This document shows, piece after piece, positions 1,401 to 2,241 of a stretch of DNA of 44,625 nucleotides. The stretch is taken from contig CAMDGU010000003.1 in assembly GCA_945897885.1 (NCBI GenBank), forward strand, positions 70,339 through 114,963, given 5' to 3'. Under the pieces are notes generated by a model. The model searched no databases. It had not been told where the DNA came from and worked only from the letters and a program-made list of their open reading frames with translations. Both the position numbers and the translations under genes were made by a program. How positions within the stretch are numbered: the stretch's first letter is position 1; each line of letters opens with the position of its first letter. Source of the stretch: Chitinophaga pinensis (GTDB lineage Bacteria > Bacteroidota > Bacteroidia > NS11-12g > UBA9320).

Positions 1401-2150
1401 TGAACCACATAGGACATAGTAAACATAGAAAATACACATAGAAATTTATTGAGGCACTATATGAAAACCTATGCCTTCTGCGATTTTAAAAGGTTCAATA
1501 AAAAGGTTGAACCACATAGGACATAGTAAACATAGGAAATACACATAGAAATTTATTGAGGCATTATTTGAAAACCTATGCCTTCTACGATTTTAAAAGG
1601 TTCAATAAAAAGGTTGAACCACATAGGACATAGTAAACATAGGAAATACACATAGGAATTTATTGAGGCACTATATGAAAACCTATGCCTTATGCGATTT
1701 TAAAAGGTTCAATAAAAAGATTAAACCACATAGGACATAGTAAACATAGACAATACACATAGAAATTTATTGAGGCACTATATGAAAACCTTTGCCTTCT
1801 GCGATTTTAAAAGGTTCAATAAAAAGATTGAACCACATAGTACATAGTAAACATAGACAATACACATAGGAATTTATTGAACCACTATGTGAAAACCTAT
1901 GCCTTCTGCGATTTTAAAAGGTTCAATAAAAAGATTAAACCACATAGGACATAGTTAAACATAGGAAATACACATAGAAATTTATTGAGGCACTATATGA
2001 AAACCTATGCCTTCTGCGATTTTAAAAGGTTCAATAAAAAGATTGAACCACATAGTATATAGTAAACATAGACAATACACATAGGAATTTATTGAACCAC
2101 TATGTGAAAACCTATGTTCCTATGTGACTATGTGGTTCTGAAAAGGTTTA
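1401..2150. repeat. Seven tandem copies of a 107-bp repeat
   Basis: Units begin at 1401, 1508, 1615, 1722, 1829, 1936 and 2044, a spacing of 107 bp (108 once, because of an inserted T). Each unit starts with (T)GAACCACATAG and carries several CATAG/CACATAG words. It then has TTTATTGA, GAAAACC(T)ATG and TGCGATTTTAAAAGG, and ends in GGTTCAATAAAAAG. GGTTCAA(T) at a unit end and (A)TTGAACC at the next unit start form a hairpin at the junctions whose next unit starts TTGAACC. Units 4 and 6 share one variant (GATTAAACC) and units 5 and 7 another (ACCACATAGTA, ATTGAACCACTATGTG), so the right half looks like a duplicated 214-bp dimer. The array fills the gap between the GSCFA gene and the sugar reductase. 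No long open frame crosses it. Confidence 0.95.
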
Positions 2151-2200
2151 CTAAAAAGGTTTACTAAAAAGGTTTACTAAAAAGGTTCAGAAAAAGGTTT
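2141..2200. repeat. Short tandem repeat, 13-bp period
   Basis: AAAAAGGTTTACT is repeated with a 13-bp period (2141-2152, 2153-2165, 2166-2178) and continues in degenerate form as AAAAAGGTTCAG and AAAAAGGTTT. It directly follows the 107-bp array and shares its AAAAGGTT core, so it probably arose by slippage from the array's end. It lies about 40 bp upstream of the -7 element of the next gene. Confidence 0.9.
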
Positions 2201-2241
2201 AAAAATATTTTTAACACTAACAATCTTTATCCCTAGCCATC

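Follow-up and report, generated by a model that had tools for sequence, protein, structure and literature searches.

A tandem array of seven near-identical units lies between two genes in the stretch of Chitinophaga pinensis DNA that we analysed (44,625 nucleotides of contig CAMDGU010000003.1, hereafter the window), and raises the question of what kind of element the unit is and how it came to be multiplied there. A first-pass annotation made from the sequence alone had described the array as seven units spaced at 107 bp and packed with CACATAG/CATAG words, in which units 4 and 6 shared one variant and units 5 and 7 another, so that the right half would be a duplicated dimer arising by unequal exchange or slippage after the first expansion; it had also judged the units too long and without spacers, and so not CRISPR, and suggested that similar words may form dispersed repeats in related genomes. 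We examined the array itself, its relatives within and beyond this genome, and the genes that accompany such relatives.

Structure of the array

The array was confirmed as a real feature of the sequence. Tandem Repeats Finder reported 1386-2116 with a period of 107, 6.8 copies, 92% matches and a score of 1250, and on the forward strand the units begin with GAACC or AAACC at 1402-1508 (unit 1), 1509-1615 (unit 2), 1616-1722 (unit 3), 1723-1829 (unit 4), 1830-1936 (unit 5), 1937-2044 (unit 6, 108 bp with one inserted T) and 2045-2138 (unit 7), so that five spacings are of 107 and the last of 108. The units carry distinct variants and lie in a contig of 114,963 bases. The duplicated-dimer proposal was found to be half right: over the first 78 alignment columns units 5 and 7 differ at 2 sites (6-11 to all others) and are sister copies, but units 4 and 6 differ at 4 sites, each being nearer to unit 1 (3 differences), and share only one private site. 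The array holds no ORF of 80 aa, the window gave no Rfam match, and the units are contiguous and near-identical without the unique spacers of a CRISPR array. A second tandem repeat of 13 bp (AAAAGGTTTACTA, 4.8 copies) directly follows at 2141-2201 (+).

Unit 7 is a complete palindromic hairpin element (GAACCACATAG ... CTATGTGGTTC) with word pairs CACATAG/CTATGTG and 12-nt perfect arms; 2044-2139 folds as RNA at -37.5 kcal/mol (z -7.28) and as DNA at z -5.1. Units 1 and 5, the two that were folded alone, do not fold (z 0.14 and -0.64), and in units 1-6 the outer right arm is replaced by TTCTGCGATTTTAAAAGGTTC or near it, unit 1 having its left arm present and its right arm decayed. When the whole array was folded, the first left arm (CACATAG words) paired with the last right arm (CTATG words), so the array grew inside one hairpin element, or decayed in all but the last right arm. 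The interpretation given in the first-pass annotation was therefore only partly supported: the tandem array, the CATAG words, the exclusion of CRISPR, the dispersed relatives and an expansion after the first copy were right, a clean 4-6/5-7 dimer was not supported, and the palindromic origin of the unit and the gene associated with its family were missed.

A dispersed hairpin family

Searching this genome (G000) with ACCACATAGNNACATAG at up to 2 mismatches gave 40 matches (19 forward, 21 reverse) against 4 for the reversed control. On reading the loci we counted about 19 places with one or two arms, one of them (contig 20) being known only from its matches; besides the window array, contig 15 has a tandem pair (about 153 bp, flank included) and contig 61 two hairpins. 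Of 16 copies examined for context, 8 lie between tandem genes, 4 between divergent and 3 between convergent genes, 1 was unclassified, and none lies inside an ORF of 80 aa or more.

The array is flanked upstream by a GSCFA family gene (PF08885; 435-1364, +) and downstream by a gene for an RmlD-type sugar reductase (PF04321; 2259-3203, +), which stand side by side in 5 genus relatives. The gap between them is about 0.9 kb here. In the relative G006 (85% RmlD identity) it holds one full and one half element of like sequence, and in G005 (also 85%), G007, G002 and G003 it is 9-64 bp without one, while G004 gave no orthologue to compare. Copy number thus differs between species at the same site, and one insertion followed by expansion here is the simplest reading. 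No target-site duplication or exact excision product was seen, at sites too diverged for junctions to be read.

Hairpins beside a GxxExxY gene

On contig 61 two hairpins are followed by a 138-aa ORF and then by a right arm. The ORF is a plain member of the GxxExxY family (TIGR04256, PF13366), predicted to encode a PD-(D/E)XK nuclease. The stretch just before it is at best a degenerate left arm, and the arm that pairs with the right arm belongs to the preceding hairpin. In G005 and G006 the two genes flanking this site are only a few bases apart, whereas the more distant G004 has a different hairpin there (TTGAACCACAACTT..AAGTCGTGGTTC, upstream of holB), so loss in the nearer relatives is as possible as gain here. 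G000 has 20 exact ACCACATAGN{1,4}CATAG words, 7 of them in the window array, compared with 2 in G005, 2 in G006 (both at the array site), 1 in G008 and none in G001-G004 and G007. G005 has no GxxExxY gene and the only one of G006 has GTCTGAAC arms; among these nine genomes only G000 has a GxxExxY with CACATAG arms among the loci examined.

In an alignment of 40 proteins D70, E80 and K82 were invariant, as expected of the D..(D/E)xK active site. The structural model had a pLDDT of 96.5. Foldseek placed lambda exonuclease and SSO0001 (a Cas4 protein) first at E of about 0.01, with no match at 0.001 or better, and VIA-align gave SSO0001 a Z of 9.5 over 100 residues (rmsd 4.4), the rest scoring below 8; a sequence search of solved structures gave no match. 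The nuclease fold is in this way predicted, but a shared fold does not show activity. A search of a phage collection gave no GxxExxY relative. Of 8 plasmid records with GxxExxY, two were opened, and Bacteroides finegoldii has arms (score 45) and Prevotella nigrescens none (21).

Matching arms on both sides of GxxExxY genes

To test whether the arrangement on contig 61 is general, we compared the upstream and downstream flanks of GxxExxY genes in inverted orientation with swapped pairs. Among PF13366 loci of the GTDB family, 15 of 29 exceeded 95% of swapped-arm scores. Among 80 named loci from genome_contigs, the best of 577 by likeness to the first protein and so leaning to one clade, 52 exceeded 95% and 39 exceeded 99%, while 28 failed the 95% test; by record title they come from Bacteroidota, Ignavibacteria, Planctomycetota, Acidobacteria, Chloroflexota, Cyanobacteria, Proteobacteria and others. 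A direct-orientation control qualified this result: 18 of 80 exceeded the same cut-off in direct orientation, 16 of them (L151, L177, L178, L193 and 12 more) above their inverted score and 10 of these among the 52, with scores up to 268, because whole hairpin-bearing stretches are repeated on both sides, which is more like a duplicated unit than a simple two-arm element. In 42 of 80 the inverted match both passed the cut-off and beat the direct one. A score of 28 or more was reached by 42 of 72 GxxExxY ORFs (those of the 80 with a complete ORF and long enough flanks) against 7 of 196 neighbour ORFs (p 2e-16) and 0 of 30 window ORFs. Of those 7, two proved to be another GxxExxY and an IVP gene, and the other five are four ordinary genes and one ORF without a family. 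Of 97 loci with arms, 80 show single arms only at our cut-off and 17 a whole hairpin on at least one side. The arm words seen were CACATAG; CACAGAG, CGCAGAG and CACGAAG; CATTAAG; CGCAGAT; and GTCTGAAT..GGATT. In CAC-type arms 72 of 99 word spacings are 8 or 9 nt, and 31 of 60 arms have 3 words.

The arm words were found to follow the clade of the protein. Among the 97 of 135 loci with arms (the 38 scoring under 28 being left out), protein identity predicted word similarity between different genomes (Mantel r 0.29, 0 of 500 permutations), although G+C difference also correlated with it (r -0.20). On the protein tree, whose bootstrap had not settled and whose labels come from word patterns written after the arms had been seen, the seven labels (five words, 'other' and 'no arm') need 47 changes against 71.7 when shuffled (0 of 200 as low), 'no arm' alone not being clustered (31 against 33.2). 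All 7 CACATAG rows (L045, L150, L152, L236, L250, L253, L254) fall within one 22-row clade (support 97/82) without forming a clade of their own (5 changes against 6.9 shuffled, 2 of 500 as low). The CAC word separates the two main clades (0 of 9 against 10 of 14, p 0.0016) but the GTC word alone does not (5 of 9 against 3 of 14, p 0.18). Within a label, the own partner arm beat all other partners in 58 of 87 loci (32 of 53, 7 of 10, 5 of 7, 8 of 10 and 6 of 7). Three partial PF13366 hits (L065, L066, L072) were left out of the clade, Mantel, tree, mismatch and partner-arm analyses, and 16 later loci (L283-L298) are not in the last four of these. One genome can carry several dialects, each with its protein clade: G294 has CACATAG (L253), CGCGGAT (L243) and CACGAAG (L232) arms.

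Of 395 genomes of the phylum, 44 have the exact CACATAG-type word and 12, G000 included, have it at least 3 times, in six families, whereas the reversed control reaches 3 in none. A GxxExxY with CACATAG arms was found in 6 of the 11 others (L250, L236, L254, L285, L283, L253), and none among those examined in the remaining five (G128, G148, G223, G229, G368), one weak hit in G368 being outside that examination. One genome of another family, G113, has an independent tandem array (L300) with units of 255-280 bp and the same words (CACATAGACACATAG).

Four-helix-bundle genes with the same layout

Four-helix-bundle (IVP) genes showed the same layout, with matching arms in 24 of 33 family loci, but of quite other words (such as TTGAGG, GTAACA, GGTTTGAA and GATATAGGA), and the best arms of the 33 loci show no CATAG. 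Of 28 plasmid records with IVP, 4 were opened and 3 scored (28, 50, 53). In cyanobacterial plasmids an IVP gene with TTAGCTTT-type words sits between cas6 and cas4 in Pseudanabaena galeata and is missing in Pseudanabaena sp. ABRG5-3. This was the one pair with and without the gene given by that gap, but the site without it still holds ATTACGA words. In the same gap of an Anabaena sp. 90 plasmid (L328, 1170-1500) about 330 bp of AGGTGACAGGGAACAGG-type words stand beside an IVP gene, and the nearly identical flanks in Dolichospermum UHCC 0315A hold a GTAGGTTGGGTT palindrome insert in place of an empty site.

A proposed nuclease-paired element

We interpret the array as a tandem amplification, probably by slippage or unequal exchange, of a gene-less, MITE-like hairpin element that entered the gap between the GSCFA and RmlD genes, probably before this species and G006 parted. 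In this view the element belongs to a family whose arms are runs of a short word (here CACATAG/CATAG, 7-13 nt apart) in inverted orientation, and whose gene-bearing form carries, between single arms or between whole hairpins, a GxxExxY gene for a small predicted PD-(D/E)XK nuclease of Cas4/RecB type. We propose that this is most likely a minimal selfish element, and that the nuclease would recognise arm words of its own dialect, most likely as an extruded hairpin, nick or cut there, and so let the element be copied by host repair; gene-less hairpins would be passengers or relics, and tandem arrays by-products. As units 1 and 5 do not fold alone, the array need not do anything and is probably inert. 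Our analysis demonstrates the array, the dispersed hairpins, the matching words on both sides of GxxExxY genes, their agreement with protein clade and at the level of single loci, the conserved catalytic residues and the presence or absence of elements between related species, whereas nuclease activity, binding of the protein to the arms, cleavage, movement, copying by repair and the direction of change at the compared sites are inferred. We hold this reading to be more likely than not, having lowered our confidence slightly, here and in the broader reading that follows, because of the direct-orientation control.

A broader reading, which is possible but which we hold only tentatively, is that of a class of minimal mobile elements spanning many phyla in which a GxxExxY nuclease or an IVP protein would be the only gene, flanked by arms made of a short word that the protein reads, each protein clade having its own word and gene-less hairpins such as this array being MITE-like offspring; 23S rRNA intervening sequences (IVSs) would then be the special case that landed in rRNA. 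GxxExxY and IVP/S23 proteins are widespread and have no known function, and the function and origin of IVSs are stated to remain unclear, transposition or mobility having been proposed but not proven (PMC4990558). The word-arm rule gives both protein families a concrete candidate substrate, as the predicted cognate DNA of a GxxExxY protein can be read off its own flanks, and it might also account for the CACAGAG/CACGAAG/CACATAG-type intergenic repeats of many bacterial genomes. Flanking cognate word-arms of GxxExxY genes turned up in none of our literature searches, which covered open-licence papers. With MITEs the hairpins share terminal inverted repeats, the absence of a gene, many copies and sometimes a tandem arrangement, but no transposase relative was seen; the gene found beside such hairpins is a nuclease, with other relatives not excluded.

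Alternative explanations

An IVS-like RNA element, whose arms would form an RNA stem allowing host RNases such as RNase III to excise the insert from transcripts and so keep insertions between operon genes harmless, with the nuclease and four-helix-bundle ORFs as cargo, is unlikely but survives. 23S rRNA IVSs carry terminal inverted repeats and an S23/IVP ORF and are cut by RNase III (PMC4990558), IVP genes here have matching arms, and 8 of 15 classifiable own-genome copies lie between same-strand genes. However, the window element lies between protein genes and not in rRNA, its arms are runs of a short word, the gene of its dialect is of the PD-(D/E)XK and not the S23/IVP family, and neighbour orientation shows no clear bias. 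If pairing in the gene-sense RNA were selected, mismatches should favour G:U, but in 97 GxxExxY arm pairs we found 100 G:U against 138 A:C (p 0.016; by locus 26 against 48, p 0.014; IVP 22 against 33), a weak effect in the wrong direction.

Equally unlikely, in our judgement, is the reverse polarity, in which the hairpins are older or mobilised by something else and GxxExxY genes are homing parasites that invade hairpins of the dialect they cut. Gene-less hairpins do outnumber gene-bearing ones (about 19 places, 1 with the gene), 5 of the 11 other word-rich genomes showed no cognate gene among those examined, and in 16 of 80 loci the gene lies between direct copies of the flanking stretch. Against this, word number is high where the cognate gene exists and low in relatives without it, which fits driving better than invading, although this is one genome.

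That the hairpins are host-serving regulators (terminators or mRNA stabilisers) and the array a local expansion is very doubtful. None of the 16 own-genome copies lies inside an ORF, and two CACATAG hairpins in the genome G255 (L302, L321) enclose terminator-like cores, as judged by eye. However, no intrinsic terminator-like site was found in 1300-2300 (0.6 expected), convergent neighbours are not in excess (3 of 15), the window and contig 61 sites are not conserved in all relatives, and the two exact-word loci of G005 share no flanks with the own-genome loci compared.

A REPIN/RAYT-like system, which likewise pairs short dispersed hairpins with an enzyme gene, in its case a Y1 (HUH) transposase, is the least likely, as the hairpins have arms of about 3 words, end in GAACC/GGTTC and are about 80-100 bp rather than 20-40 bp palindromes with a GTAG or CGTC tag at one end (PMC3733652), and as none of the 3 Y1_Tnp genes of this genome has CACATAG arms within 500 bp, two of them (L039 and L041) having palindromic flanks of their own (GTCGCGTAGCGA; CCCGAAGGG) that form a separate repeat system.
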